A stretch of 64,000 nt of DNA from Proteus faecis (lineage in GTDB: Bacteria > Pseudomonadota > Gammaproteobacteria > Enterobacterales > Enterobacteriaceae), in NCBI RefSeq assembly GCF_003144395.1, contig NZ_PENZ01000027.1, positions 62,001 through 126,000 of the forward strand. Reading direction: 5' to 3'. Below, piece after piece: positions 36,001 through 41,145 of this stretch (positions are counted from its first letter, which is position 1; each line of letters begins with the position of its first letter). Both the position numbers and the translations under genes were made by a program. The notes beneath the pieces are model-generated. The model ran no database searches. It was not told the DNA's origin and saw nothing but the letters and a program-made list of their open reading frames with translations.

Positions 36001-36855
36001 TTACTGAAATTAGATGGGCGCATTGATATTCCTTGGGCACGTATTGTTGTTCAAGATTTACCAGAGTCTGCGGTCTCCGCTTCTTCTGATGAAGTGATGC
36101 TGGATAAAAACTTACAGCCAATTGCTCCAAAAGAGACATCGATTCCAATTCAAAGTGATTTAGCTATTAATATTGGCGATGATGTGACACTGGACGCATT
36201 TGGGCTTAAAGCTAGATTGACGGGAGCTCTCAAAGTCAATCAGAATAAACAAGGACTAGGTTTAAATGGCCAAATAGATATTCCAAAAGGCCAATTCAAA
36301 GCTTATGGGCAAGATCTACAAGTCCGTAAGGGACAAATTTTGTTCTCAGGGCCAGTTGATCAACCTTACTTGAATATTGAAGCTATTCGTAATCCTGAAA
36401 ATACGGCAAATAATGTGATTGCTGGTGTCAGGGTTACAGGGCTTGCAGATAAACCTAAAGTTGATATTTTCTCTGAACCCGCATTTACACAGCAAGAAGC
36501 GTTATCTTACTTGCTAAGAGGTGAAGGGTTAGATAAAAGTGGTGATGCGGATTCATCACAAATGACAGCAATGCTGATAGGATTAGGCGTTGGTCAAAGT
36601 GGTCAGCTTGTAGGGCGCATTGGTGAAACCTTTGGTGTTTCGGATTTAGCGCTTGATACACAAGGTGTGGGAGATAGCTCACAAGTTGTGGTCAGCGGTA
36701 AGATCACCAACGATCTACAAGTGAAGTATGGAGTGGGTATATTTGATTCGCTAGCGACGTTAACCTTACGTTATCGCTTGATGCCCAGGTTGTATTTACA
36801 AGCAGTGTCTGGTATGAATCAGGCAATAGATCTGCTTTATCAATTTGAGTTTTAA
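33028..36855 (+). CDS. tamB: Translocation and assembly module inner-membrane subunit TamB
   Basis: 1275 residues (E. coli 1259). It is an AsmA-like protein anchored by one N-terminal segment ([18 protein letters not shown], about residues 13-30) with a very long periplasmic beta-taco that reaches TamA. The C-terminal DUF490 domain ends in LYQFEF, like a beta-barrel signal. A Glu/Pro/Thr-rich stretch near residues 185-225 looks like an insertion relative to E. coli. The ATGA overlap with tamA indicates coupled translation. Confidence 0.95.
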
Positions 36856-36860
36856 ATTAT

Positions 36861-37208
36861 ATGCGAATTATTGTTTATGGTAGTTTACGGCAAAACCAAG
36901 GTAACCATCACTGGATGACCTATGCACAACTTTTGGGTGAGCATAAGTTAAAGGGATATAAACTCTATGATTTAGGGTTTTACCCTGCGGTTGTTGAAGG
37001 TGAGGGTGAAATAGAATGCGAAGTCTATCGGATAACGCCCTCTATCTTGACAGAGCTTGATGAACTGAAAAAGAACGATCAAGATTACAAGCGCCAACTG
37101 ATTTCAACGCCTTATGGCAGTGCTTGGATCTATCTTTATCAAAAGCCTGTTGATGGCTTACGTGAAATAAAGTGTGGCGACTGGTTAAAACGTCACGAAG
37201 AAGAGTAA
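36861..37208 (+). CDS. ytfP: Gamma-glutamylcyclotransferase-like protein YtfP
   Basis: 115 residues, like E. coli YtfP (113). The GGCT fold shows RIIVYGSLRQNQGNHHWM at the N-terminus and a conserved glutamate in TELDELKKNDQDYKRQ. The physiological substrate is not established. It follows tamB after 5 bp, completing the conserved tamA-tamB-ytfP operon, and ends in a very strong terminator. Confidence 0.93.
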   Translation: MRIIVYGSLRQNQGNHHWMTYAQLLGEHKLKGYKLYDLGFYPAVVEGEGEIECEVYRITPSILTELDELKKNDQDYKRQLISTPYGSAWIYLYQKPVDGLREIKCGDWLKRHEEE

Positions 37209-37241
37209 TCAGTAACCTTCTGTTTTTAATTAAAATTAACT

Positions 37242-37275
37242 AAAAATGGCTCGATAATAATATCGAGCCATTTTT
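37242..37275 (+). terminator. Strong Rho-independent terminator after ytfP
   Basis: A perfect 15 bp stem (37242-37256 with 37261-37275) with a 4 nt loop and a T run. Confidence 0.92.
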
Positions 37276-37562
37276 ATATTTAGATAAGGTGACGTTTTTA
37301 ATTCAATATCGTATTTTGATAAGTTAATAAAAGTCTTATTTCCTGCATTAATAAAACAATAATTAATTAAAATACTATTATTTTCACTTCAATTAATAAC
37401 AAATATTTTCTTTATTTTTTATTTATATTGATATGAATTTTATTAATGGCTGATCCGTTGACAATAAAATTTAATTAATGCTAAAAAGATAAAAGAACAT
37501 TTTAGTTAAATAATGAAACTTACTGTTATTATTTTTTAAATATTAATTTGAAAGGTGATCTT
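37276..37562. other. AT-rich upstream region of the accessory island
   Basis: About 290 bp of strongly AT-rich sequence between the ytfP terminator and the first small ORF. It contains a candidate promoter at 37458-37487 and otherwise no recognisable gene. Confidence 0.5.
37458..37487 (+). promoter_or_regulatory. Candidate promoter of the small-peptide island
   Basis: A perfect TTGACA at 37458-37463, an 18 bp spacer, and TAAAAA at 37482-37487 (4 of 6 to TATAAT). It lies about 75 bp upstream of the first small ORF. Confidence 0.45.
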
Positions 37563-37652
37563 ATGCGTAAATTTAATGATGTTTCATTGCTTTATAAAAG
37601 TCAGCCGGAAAGGGTTGAAAAAATACAGAGAGTCATCCTTTTACTGATATGA
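37563..37652 (+). CDS. Unknown 29-residue small ORF
   Basis: Not recognised. It has a good ribosome binding site (AAAGGTGATCTT) and reads MRKFNDVSLLYKSQPERVEK before IQRVILLLI and TGA. Its stop overlaps the next ATG as ATGA. Alternatively it is the 5' part of a single 85-residue protein: a one-base change in the A6 run at about 37619-37624 would fuse it in frame to the next ORF. It could be a real leader peptide, a decayed gene or a frameshifted one. Confidence 0.45.
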   Translation: MRKFNDVSLLYKSQPERVEKIQRVILLLI

Positions 37653-37819
37653 TATTACAAACAAAAACAACAGAGGTGTTAGATAAACTAGCTTATCTTG
37701 CTGGCATTAAAAATGCACCTGCTGATGATAAATATTTAAAATTGCATACATCTAATTTAAATGCTCTTATTGAAAGCGCTAAGTCATTAGGTTATGACAT
37801 CGAATTAGTTAGTGTTTAA
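37649..37819 (+). CDS. Unknown 56-residue small protein
   Basis: Not recognised. It begins MILQTKTTEVLDKLAYLAG and ends LNALIESAKSLGYDIELVSV. The end has a faint resemblance to the end of Nif11-type leader domains, which is suggestive only. No cysteines, signal peptide or double-glycine motif. The start overlaps the previous stop (ATGA) with no separate ribosome binding site, so it depends on coupling or on a frameshift. A hairpin follows immediately. Confidence 0.5.
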   Translation: MILQTKTTEVLDKLAYLAGIKNAPADDKYLKLHTSNLNALIESAKSLGYDIELVSV

Positions 37820-37825
37820 TTAAAA

Positions 37826-37847
37826 AAAGCAGCCAAAAGGCTGCTTT
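37826..37847 (+). terminator. Hairpin between small ORF and downstream genes (attenuator-like)
   Basis: AAAGCAGCC pairs perfectly with GGCTGCTTT around AAAA, 7 bp after the stop of the 56-residue ORF and 20 bp before the next start. The T run after it is short, so partial termination is likely, giving more of the upstream ORF than of the genes below. Confidence 0.65.
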
Positions 37848-37866
37848 ATTCACTTAGGAGAAAATA

Positions 37867-38196
37867 GTGAATAAGGATATTATTGAGTTAAATAAAAATA
37901 TTAATATAGCAGGATTACATTGGATTTCTCGTTGGCGAGTTAACAATGGAAAAAAGGATTCTTATGTTGTTCCTTTTGCTACAACCTATCCTATTAATAT
38001 TATTTATCATGGAAAAAGTAAATTTAAATATGGGCAGTATGGTATTCATCTGGGTCAGAAAGATACACTAACTTTCTTAGGTAATAAAAATAAAAAGATA
38101 CTTGCTAAATTTATTGATTGTCGAAAATACTCTCCGACCTTTAAATCAGTATTAACAACCCACACATCACACGCCAAAGTCCATTGTTTTATATGA
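37867..38196 (+). CDS. Unknown 109-residue protein, probably frameshifted near its end
   Basis: Not recognised. GTG start with a good TAGGAGAAAATA site. The protein is basic and rich in Lys, Tyr, Ile and Asn, without signal peptide or membrane segment. After about residue 96 the reading frame appears to shift: the +1 frame continues as HHTPKSIVLYDKNNKPIKVL to a stop at 38240-38242, just before the next gene. Removing one C from the CCC near 38158-38160 would give a smooth 124-residue protein. It is either a recent pseudogene, a sequencing error or genuinely short. Confidence 0.5.
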   Translation: MNKDIIELNKNINIAGLHWISRWRVNNGKKDSYVVPFATTYPINIIYHGKSKFKYGQYGIHLGQKDTLTFLGNKNKKILAKFIDCRKYSPTFKSVLTTHTSHAKVHCFI

Positions 38197-38250
38197 TAAA
38201 AATAATAAACCAATTAAAGTGTTAATTAAAGAAAAGGTCTAATTTTCATT

Positions 38251-39327
38251 ATGCGCATTATCTTTTTTTATATGCTTCTGGGGGTATTAACTGCTGATGG
38301 ATTAATGGTATTCCTTACTCCTGTTATTGTATATCAATTAACAACAAGCATTGAATATGCAGGATTGACATATGCATTATGGTGGCTGCCTCGACTTTTT
38401 TTAATACCGCTTATTGGAAAATATATTGATGATCTTGGTGTTCGTCCTATCTCTATTATTTCTGATAGTTGTAAAATAATAGGATGTTTATTTTTATTAC
38501 TCACATATTTTACATCTGATTTAATGATAGCGATAAGTTTTGGTTTAGTGGGGAGTTTGATTTCTATTGGAAATTCACAAACATTAATTTCTTATGAAAA
38601 AATTATTGTATTGATAAGTCATAATAGAGAACATCATATTAATATAATGTCTAGAATAGATTTTTTAGGAATGATTATAGGACCATTAATTGGGATTGTT
38701 TTTATTGATTTTGGCTATCAATATTTAATTATTATACCTTGTATGTTCTATTTTATTAATGCTATTTTCTTTTTGTTTTTTTATATAAGGACAGATATTA
38801 ATAATAAAAGTAATCTAGAGGAAGGAGTGATTTTTACTAAAAAATTTATTTATATTATTTCTTCACCCATACTGCTATTTTCTATATTTATTGATATTGT
38901 GGCGGGTATCTTTGGTGTATTAGGAACATATTTATACAGCTATTTAAATCAATATATAAGTAGAATATTGTTAATTATTATTTCAATTTCCATTATTACG
39001 ATAAGCTCTTCTTTACTTGTTTTTTTTCAAAGCTCAATAACTATATTTATCATTTGCTATGCTATTTCAATTATTGGAAAAGTCTTTTCAGGTAATATAT
39101 TGAGATTATTAAGGATAGAAATTATTCCTATCAATCAACTTGCGAGTATTTCATCACTGATGATTTTATTAAATCAGATGATATTGCCCATTGTTGGTGG
39201 GCTTCTGTTTTTCTCTACTGGTGAAATCACCTTTATTTATACATTGATGATTATCGCGATAGGGATAACTTTGATAAATGGTATCTTGCTTGTCATATGC
39301 TTGAAAAGAAGCACAATATCATCATAA
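38251..39327 (+). CDS. MFS-type transporter, probable exporter
   Basis: 358 residues, with about 10 to 12 predicted membrane segments. The start GVLTADGLMVFLTPVIVYQL and the loop WWLPRLFLIPLIGKYIDDLGVRP resemble the A-like motif between segments 2 and 3 of drug and siderophore exporters. It is shorter than usual (about 400). Very AT-rich codon use sets it apart from the core genes around it. It lies 8 bp after the probable true end of the preceding ORF, so it belongs to the same unit and may export a product of it. Substrate unknown. Confidence 0.8.
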   Translation: MRIIFFYMLLGVLTADGLMVFLTPVIVYQLTTSIEYAGLTYALWWLPRLFLIPLIGKYIDDLGVRPISIISDSCKIIGCLFLLLTYFTSDLMIAISFGLVGSLISIGNSQTLISYEKIIVLISHNREHHINIMSRIDFLGMIIGPLIGIVFIDFGYQYLIIIPCMFYFINAIFFLFFYIRTDINNKSNLEEGVIFTKKFIYIISSPILLFSIFIDIVAGIFGVLGTYLYSYLNQYISRILLIIISISIITISSSLLVFFQSSITIFIICYAISIIGKVFSGNILRLLRIEIIPINQLASISSLMILLNQMILPIVGGLLFFSTGEITFIYTLMIIAIGITLINGILLVICLKRSTISS

Positions 39328-39360
39328 AAAAAGCCCTTCAATAAAATGAAGAGCTTATTT
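39326..39360. terminator. Hairpin between the MFS gene and ppa
   Basis: AAGCCCTTCA and TGAAGAGCTT pair with one mismatch, flanked by an A tract and a T-rich end. It can serve both converging genes. Confidence 0.6.
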
Positions 39361-39412
39361 ATCAGTAAATTATTAAGTAATAACTCACTTAGTTATTCTG
39401 AGTGGGTCAGAA

Positions 39413-39940
39413 TTATTTTTTAGCGCGCTCGAAAGAAGAAAGAATTTCAGCTTTAGCTGCTTCTACGCCTTCCCAACCGTCAACTTTAACCCATTTGCCA
39501 GTTTCTAAATCTTTATAGTGCTCAAAGAAATGTTTGATCTGTGCTTTTAACAGCTCAGGCAAGTCGTTCACATCTTTAATGTGATCGTATTCTTTGCTCA
39601 GTTTTGTGTGTGGAACTGCAACCAGTTTCGCATCTTCACCTGATTCGTCAGTCATTTTCAGTACGCCAACAGGACGGCAACGAATAACTGAACCTGGTTG
39701 TAATGGATATGGAGTTGGAACCAGAACGTCTACTGGGTCACCATCTAAAGATAACGTGTTGTTAATGTAACCGTAGTTGCATGGGTAGAACATTGCAGTT
39801 GACATAAAACGGTCAACAAACAGTGCGCCACTTTCTTTATCAACTTCGTATTTGATAGGATCAGCGTTTGCTGGGATTTCAATAACAACATAGATATCTT
39901 CTGGTAGTTCTTTACCAGCAGGAACATGATTCAGGCTCAT
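39413..39940 (-). CDS. ppa: Inorganic pyrophosphatase
   Basis: 175 residues, like E. coli PPase (176). It hydrolyses pyrophosphate made by biosynthetic reactions. [37 protein letters not shown] (the family I signature with metal-binding aspartates) and KVDGWEG are present. Monocistronic between converging MFS gene and co-directional fbp. Confidence 0.97.
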
Positions 39941-40081
39941 AAAAAATTTCCTATAAAAAATAATTTTACGTGGCCTTTAGTATAGCGAAAAGTTTTTAAC
40001 AATACCCGTTTTTTGCCAAACCTGTTGCGTTATGATGCAAAAATAAGCAGTAAATAAAAAGAAGCTCTATTATTAAAGATG

Positions 40082-40111
40082 AAAAAACCGGACGAAAGAG
40101 AAGCCCGGTTT
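40082..40111 (-). terminator. Rho-independent terminator after fbp
   Basis: On the minus strand AAACCGG pairs with CCGGTTT, followed by a T run. Lies 27 bp past the fbp stop. Confidence 0.75.
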
Positions 40112-40137
40112 ATCTATATGGCGACTAAGCCAATGAA

Positions 40138-41145
40138 TTATTCTTCGTCAGGATATTGCGCCATAAAGCTTTCAGCTTGTTCAACCATCGATTTAGTACC
40201 TACAAAGAAAGGCATACGTTGGTGAAGTTCTTTGGGCTCGATATCAAGAATACGTTCTTTACCGTTACTTGCTTTACCGCCAGCCTGTTCAGCTAAGAAT
40301 GCCATTGGATTGCATTCATACAGTAAACGTAATTTACCAGTAGGGTGGCTTGCTGTACTTGGGTAAATATAAATCCCACCTTTTAGTAAGTTGCGATGAA
40401 AATCAGCAACTAAAGAACCGATATAACGAGTGGTATAAGGGCGATTTGTTGCCACATCTTGTTCTTGGCAATACTTAATGTATTTTTTTACACCTAATGG
40501 GAATTTGATGTAATTACCTTCGTTGATTGAGTACATATTTCCTGTTGGTGGGAATTGTACACTTTCATGAGATAAACAGAATACACCTAAAGAAGGATCA
40601 TAAGTAAAGGCATGAACACCACAACCTGTTGTATAAACTAACATGGTTGATGATCCATAAACGACATAGCCTGCCGCTACTTGACGATGACCTGGTTGTA
40701 AGAAGTCATCTAAGGTTACTGATTGGCCAATAGGTGTAATACGGTGGTAAATAGAGAAAATAGTACCGACGGAAACGTTTACATCAATATTCGAAGAACC
40801 ATCTAATGGATCCATTAACACGACGTACTTAGCATTTTCAGCACGATCACCTTCAAAGATAACAATATCATCTTCTTCTTCTGATCCGATACCCGCAACT
40901 TCACCACGTGCTTTTAATGCAGCTTTGAGTTTCTCATTCGCGTAAAGATCCAGTTTCATCTGGGCTTCACCTTGAACATTAGAAACACCGTTAGTACCAA
41001 GAATATCGACTAACCCTGCTTTGTTGATATCACGGTGAATAATTTTAGCCCCAAGCTTAATTGCTGAAAGTAATGCCGTAAGTTCGCCAGTTGCATGGGG
41101 AAAATCTTGTTGTTTCTCGACGATAAATTCGCCTAATGTTTTCAT
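40138..41145 (-). CDS. fbp: Fructose-1,6-bisphosphatase class I
   Basis: 335 residues (E. coli 332). It forms fructose 6-phosphate from fructose 1,6-bisphosphate in gluconeogenesis. The metal site [19 protein letters not shown] and the substrate motif [20 protein letters not shown] are clear. In E. coli it is inhibited by AMP. Divergent from mpl, as in E. coli. Confidence 0.97.

Follow-up and report, generated by a model that had tools for sequence, protein, structure and literature searches.

In the bacilysin locus, a bi-cupin, BacB, is accompanied by an exporter of the major facilitator superfamily (MFS), BacE. In microcin C of E. coli, the precursor is mostly 7 amino acids (aa) long; the small peptide gene comes first, a terminator hairpin stands before the next gene (that is, between mccA and mccB) and a dedicated pump exports the product (PMC6495379). 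The biphenomycin-like pbs cluster combines the precursor of a ribosomally synthesized and post-translationally modified peptide (RiPP) with a JmjC-like cupin hydroxylase and an MFS gene (PMC12257519). In marine Synechococcus, another report places a Nif11 precursor near a cupin and suggests that a putative epimerase yields D-amino acids (PMC10783134). The present study concerns an AT-rich island at 37458..39327 of a 64,000-nucleotide stretch of Proteus faecis DNA (assembly GCF_003144395.1, contig NZ_PENZ01000027.1, positions 62,001 to 126,000; hereafter, the window), where a small gene, a hairpin, an enzyme gene, and an MFS exporter gene follow one another on the plus strand. We hold it to be an even call that the window carries a decayed copy of a mobile RiPP-like cassette made up of a peptide, an RmlC-fold tailoring enzyme, and an exporter.

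The first-pass annotation had placed an unknown basic protein of about 110-125 residues in the middle of the island. This open reading frame (ORF; 37867..38196, plus strand, 109 residues) is really the N-terminal quarter of an RmlC-like bi-cupin of ~430 aa. It finds matches in 9 of 60 related genomes, all of them Proteus and one of them the window's own, and in the eight others its first 100-102 residues match, at 75-85% identity, the beginning of a much longer open frame (433-445 residues). Inside each of these eight frames the same query finds a second, weaker match, that is, an internal duplication. A C-terminal scrap of the bi-cupin, corresponding to residues 403-430 of a relative by tblastn, persists in a different frame at 38156..38239 (plus strand), and the middle ~300 residues are absent from the window copy. 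Among the records matching the enzyme are Proteus cibi, P. penneri, and P. mirabilis.

The intact ~430-aa enzyme passes the cut-off of PF00908, the dTDP-4-dehydrorhamnose 3,5-epimerase family, in two stretches (E 1.2e-11; 45.1 vs 27), and PF00908 is the only Pfam family that it matches. Its relatives in the PDB are mostly RmlC-type sugar-nucleotide epimerases (best E 1.1e-5). Identity with RmlC itself was rejected, the enzyme scoring 33 bits against the TIGR01221 equivalog cut-off of 155.75. The motifs HLGQ(Q/E)D and GVAH occur in each half, without variation in 8/8 sequences, and the first-half segments DCRKNSPTF and IPPGVAH align with RmlC. RmlC has a catalytic histidine. Since the best RmlC alignments start past the HLGQ(Q/E)D motif, they do not show the RmlC catalytic residues to be retained in the enzyme.

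In the relatives, the first gene of the cassette encodes an intact protein of 87-89 aa, and the "one or two tiny ORFs" described earlier for the window are in fact two out-of-frame pieces of this single gene. The front piece lies at 37563..37652 (plus strand), where the ATG aligns with the relatives' start codon (the ORF had been listed from a TTG at 37548). The rear piece, in another frame at 37643..37819 (plus strand), carries the conserved part with DKLAYLAGIKNAPADDKY, as aligned with 11 relatives. Furthermore, a profile of the small gene matches the window at model positions 19-87, with one internal stop. At the other end of the island, the predicted MFS gene, on the same strand and tightly spaced, is confirmed by PF07690 (38251..39327, plus strand, 358 aa; E 8.2e-14), in a copy with an internal deletion. 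The reading frame is kept, and a conserved 33-residue stretch that 7/7 aligned relatives have is gone; the intact exporters of the relatives have 390-412 aa.

All three genes of the window are thereby damaged: the frame of the small gene is broken, the enzyme is ~300 residues short, and the exporter is without 33 residues. A functional copy in the window was considered and discarded, as open frames of the relatives' length occur in none of the three genes. Judged from these reading frames, the locus is a pseudogenized, decayed copy of a three-gene cassette. A search with the middle ORF found no second copy of the cassette in the window's genome.

The intact cassette runs in the order small gene, hairpin, bi-cupin, and MFS exporter, an operon of about 2.8 kb. 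The first-pass annotation had asked whether peptide, protein, and exporter travel together, and they do: the three genes are adjacent on one strand in 17/17 loci, which amount to 14/14 distinct strains or records, three Proteus genomes having been counted twice. These loci were fetched via a match to the enzyme or to cassette DNA, and the count thus measures the company of the enzyme. Specifically, the small gene (87-89 codons, shifted in one) adjoins the enzyme gene in 14/14 strains or records. A dedicated exporter, common in RiPP systems though not universal, is likewise there in all 14, the MFS gene being split in two of them; in one of these two, the end of the small gene is also shifted.

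Carriers of the cassette are Proteus, Chimaeribacter arupi (two strains), Pantoea piersonii, Winslowiella iniecta, and one further genome, and their loci represent at least four genomic settings. In Proteus, the cassette sits between ytfP and ppa. In Chimaeribacter, it sits on a plasmid beside GMC oxidoreductase genes, its flanks including glycoside hydrolase and oxidoreductase genes, and in Pantoea piersonii it is carried by a large plasmid. The Winslowiella setting is common to the one further genome, there on a 4.9 Mb contig. Moreover, the GC content of the cassette is under that of the rest of the locus in 7/7 loci compared (of the 17), for example 0.415 vs 0.613 in Chimaeribacter. Because of the differing surroundings and this lower GC, we read the cassette as mobile, apparently moving as a unit. 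The Pantoea piersonii locus also has, ~4 kb away from the cassette, genes for HlyD and for an ABC transporter with a peptidase domain, accompanied by two small ORFs, an arrangement resembling those for bacteriocin export (L035:14249-17287).

The cassette is rare. We used evenly drawn samples of genomes at the levels of order, phylum, and family, the draws overlapping and the window's own genome being included each time. The enzyme occurs in 2/394 genomes of the order (one intact bi-cupin as query) and in 1/398 of the phylum. At family level, the enzyme profile matches 7/392 genomes and the small-protein profile 5/392, all five of the latter matching the enzyme profile as well. Both genomes with an enzyme match and no small-protein match have the enzyme at a contig end. 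In the first, the match (residues 156-430, with an MFS gene alongside) starts 133 bases from the contig end, and therefore its front region cannot be judged. The second holds a degraded enzyme scrap with stops, and no MFS gene is present within the 4.4 kb seen. No E. coli genome in the collection searched has DNA resembling the small gene plus enzyme.

Within six Proteus cassettes (15 pairs for each gene), the ratio of nonsynonymous to synonymous substitution (dN/dS) was 0.07-0.40 for the small gene, 0.08-0.20 for the bi-cupin, and 0.12-0.21 for the exporter, rough values given mean synonymous distances of 0.96-1.12. The window and two further Proteus cassettes (G018, G013), being broken, were left out of this set. 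A role in anti-phage defence was rejected, the three intact proteins having no PADLOC match at E up to 0.1. A phage origin was rejected as well, no phage record matching the enzyme (tblastn, E up to 1e-5). None of the 18 pattern-matching viral stretches encodes a relative, and the sole PHROG match is an RmlC-like family.

The spacer between ytfP and ppa was compared in 20 Proteus genomes. Nine of them (window included) hold the cassette, two an MFS scrap alone, five a sulfatase gene, and four nothing recognizable in 126-360 bp. The MFS scraps, of 25-34 residues (L041:827-901 and L051:4063-4164), suggest that the cassette was once present in these two genomes and was then lost. The sulfatase that takes the place of the cassette is found at L043:2665-4293 and also in L046, L048, L049, and L050; the L043 copy matches PF00884 (E 1.2e-43) and has a sub-threshold twin-arginine signal match.

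The hairpin claimed in the first pass between the small gene and the enzyme gene (37826..37847, plus strand) has stood up, with a fold z of -3.06 and with compensatory changes among the relatives, and it is a possible attenuator. Its RNA folds at -15.2 kcal/mol, only 1 of 200 shuffles being as good. The hairpin is found in 11/11 aligned sequences with 97% of 99 cells paired; for three of its nine pairs, at least one sequence has both partners changed, and its covariation score was reached by 0/500 shuffles. By analogy with the terminator of microcin C, our guess would be that the hairpin acts by attenuation. Hairpins that hold enzyme output below that of the precursor are common, though not universal, in RiPP clusters.

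More remote relatives of the enzyme exist outside the Enterobacterales. On Streptomyces plasmids, RmlC-like proteins, two of ~380-410 aa and two of ~200 aa in one cluster, occur in runs with ORFs of 85-97 aa and MFS genes. Their relation to the cassette enzyme is clear (hhalign 98.7%, E 3.3e-16). On a Leptolyngbya boryana plasmid, an 88-aa ORF lies ahead of a single RmlC-like gene, and the 12 kb seen includes no annotated MFS gene. The Streptomyces RmlC-like/MFS clusters are headed by a small ORF whose start, judged by eye, resembles a signal peptide and which carries a DG(F/Y)GW motif, in three copies in NBC_00012 and one in NBC_01351 (L037:6497-6799 and L038:9206-9373). This ORF has no Pfam match and is possibly a repeat-core precursor peptide.

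We prefer a peptide as the product of the cassette because a small protein, one enzyme, and one exporter move as a unit with a conserved hairpin. Transcription would then begin ahead of the small gene, and the hairpin would stop part of the transcripts, so that the small protein would be made in excess. We infer that this protein is the substrate of the bi-cupin, which would bind and modify it, probably with one RmlC-type pocket per half. As for the chemistry, the fold would most naturally suggest isomerization or epimerization or, alternatively, a metal-cupin oxidation. Either the whole product or a processed portion would exit through the MFS pump, which may additionally protect the producer.

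Several observations weigh against a peptide product. In the alignment with 11 relatives, conservation of the small protein extends over almost its entire length, with no hypervariable core, and such near-full-length conservation could fit a working folded protein too. In Pfam and NCBIfam the small protein has sub-threshold matches only, and the NCBI annotation of the Pantoea and Chimaeribacter loci labels it an XRE family transcriptional regulator. No protease gene is seen inside the cassette. The AlphaFold2 models, each from a 5-sequence alignment, are too poor for use for both the small protein and the bi-cupin (mean predicted local distance difference test scores of 55.3 and 30.5, respectively). 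For the hairpin, the number of pairs changed on both sides was reached by 18/500 shuffles and that of further pair types by 423/500; the structure for the covariation test was derived from the window's own sequence, and kin rows inflate such scores. A terminator scan assigns the hairpin to the minus strand, and the T-run following it on the plus strand is short in the window; some relatives, Pantoea and Winslowiella among them, have a longer one, of up to 5-6 T. Damaged or scrap cassettes make up 5/20 of the Proteus genomes (the window, G018, G013, and the two scraps). Finally, three Streptomyces ORFs of ~90 aa have no demonstrable homology to the Proteus small protein (hhalign probability 0.45%), a C-terminal likeness noticed by eye being left out of account, and two of the three translated Streptomyces MFS proteins have no BLAST match to the Chimaeribacter MFS. 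The Streptomyces clusters therefore show parallel gene content and are not proof of one family.

The most serious alternative, doubtful in our judgment though well worth weighing, is that the bi-cupin turns free metabolites (a sugar nucleotide, a keto acid, or a prephenate-like compound) into a small molecule for export by the MFS pump, with the small protein acting as regulator, chaperone, or partner subunit. BacB, itself a bi-cupin, works in this way in bacilysin synthesis. Membership of the enzyme in the RmlC superfamily, whose solved members in the PDB list are mostly sugar-nucleotide epimerases, agrees with this alternative, and so do the conservation of the small protein over nearly its whole length and its annotation as an XRE regulator. 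However, the Chimaeribacter, Pantoea, and Winslowiella loci viewed have no visible or annotated gene of a sugar-nucleotide pathway next to the cassette. The XRE label was itself rejected, as searches of Pfam and NCBIfam (E up to 1), and of NCBIfam with the limit raised to E 10, gave the small protein no recognizable helix-turn-helix family. It would also be unusual for a regulator gene to come first and to be separated from the rest by a hairpin.

It is improbable that the exporter is an ordinary drug or metabolite efflux pump lying beside two unrelated genes, with no peptide system at all. The window MFS is above the cut-off of the general model PF07690, and both it and the Chimaeribacter MFS match TIGR00900 only well below cut-off, as such a pump might; yet a chance neighborhood would not keep the three genes together in 14/14 strains or records and in several settings. 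That the ORFs of the window are a working minimal variant, in which the small gene undergoes programmed frameshifting and the enzyme is short by design, is most improbable: the MFS deletion is in frame and the hairpin is intact, but each of the three genes has a lesion of its own, the enzyme is down to ~100 of its ~430 residues, runs out in a foreign frame, and is without the first-half GVAH motif region and nearly the whole second half, the exporter has lost its conserved GNNMFDG stretch, and the same locus is decaying in other Proteus too.

Beyond the window, we put forward a broader proposal, tentative and short of an even chance, concerning the intact cassette. It would represent the minimal form of an undescribed ribosomal-peptide class, in which a tandem RmlC-fold cupin acts on a peptide in place of a sugar nucleotide, possibly as an epimerase or isomerase. 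The class would have cousins in Actinomycetota and Cyanobacteriota, and Proteus would keep, erode, and lose the cassette at the ytfP-ppa site. The part of interest is the intact family behind the window's pseudogene remnant. If the bi-cupin does act on the small protein, the RmlC fold would be added to those known to tailor peptides, and the three-gene operon, at ~2.8 kb, would lend itself as a model of this chemistry. In addition, the ytfP-ppa site, with its intact, half-decayed, scrap, and empty versions, would give a natural record of cassette loss.

Regarding the setting of the island, an AT-rich block bounded by ytfP and ppa had been noted at the outset, and the composition agrees. The GC content is 0.270 at 37458-39327 vs 0.400 for the whole window, and the 12 lowest-GC segments of 1,870 bp in a scan of the whole window in 50-base steps all begin within 37001-37551. 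The left neighbor is ytfP (36861-37208; GGACT family), and the right neighbor is ppa (39413-39940, complement; named by its matches). An origin of the island by chance or artefact is ruled out, since GC in the window is lowest at the island and since pieces of the island match conserved relatives. Of the promoter announced in the first pass, a -35-like TTGACA (37458..37463, plus strand) upstream of the small gene is kept in 8/9 aligned Proteus upstream regions; the promoter scan as a whole did not exceed shuffled sequence, with 19 promoter-like matches in 36500-40500 vs a shuffle mean of 19.9. Terminator-like sites in the same interval are above shuffles (6 vs 1.6). One hairpin stands behind the cassette (39331..39356, minus strand as listed by the terminator scan) and may serve the convergent ppa. 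Another strong terminator-like hairpin, with 16 pairs (37241-37276, listed for the minus strand), lies just past ytfP and separates it from the cassette. Among known RNAs, four Rfam matches at E up to 0.5 were obtained, every one under its gathering score.

In the literature searched, mostly non-subscription and in one search 12 of 610 papers, none of the 12 with the term "RmlC-like", neither this cassette nor an RmlC-like enzyme modifying a ribosomal peptide was found described. One candidate parallel (PMC8068269) was set aside, as rmlC there refers to rhamnose genes near a RiPP and is unrelated. A further paper retrieved, PMC13234024, deals with a Bacillus-Fusarium transcriptome. Compared with RmlC (PF00908, TIGR01221), the enzyme is alike in matching PF00908 in two stretches and in its alignable DCRKNSPTF and IPPGVAH segments, and differs in having two tandem halves in one chain and in scoring 33 vs 155.75 bits. 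The bacilysin locus resembles the cassette in joining a bi-cupin and an MFS exporter within one small biosynthetic locus. In contrast to the cassette, it has no ribosomal small protein, and the substrates are different.

The likeness to microcin C proposed in the first pass survives for the operon architecture (gene order and covarying hairpin) and fails for the enzyme, which is of another kind, and for the window copy, which is damaged. Membership in the microcin C-like class was rejected, as the enzyme matches PF00908 only in Pfam and the precursor candidate has 87-89 aa; no counterpart of MccE or MccF is seen in the cassette. Where microcin C has the adenylating enzyme MccB, which is ThiF-like, the cassette has an RmlC-like bi-cupin. 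Both systems place a small gene first and a hairpin next and include an exporter (PMC6495379), whereas the precursor in microcin C is mostly 7 aa against the 87-89 aa here. The pbs cluster resembles the cassette, in which the small protein is the candidate precursor, by uniting an MFS gene with a precursor peptide and a tailoring enzyme of the cupin fold; it has several enzymes (a multinuclear non-heme iron oxidase, an arginase, a B12-dependent radical S-adenosylmethionine enzyme, and a protease) where the cassette has a single bi-cupin (PMC12257519). In the Synechococcus clusters, a precursor gene again lies near a cupin, which is not described there as RmlC-like; that precursor is of the Nif11 type, whereas the small protein here reaches no family cut-off. 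These Nif11/cupin/epimerase clusters are the nearest literature parallel that we found for the cassette (PMC10783134).

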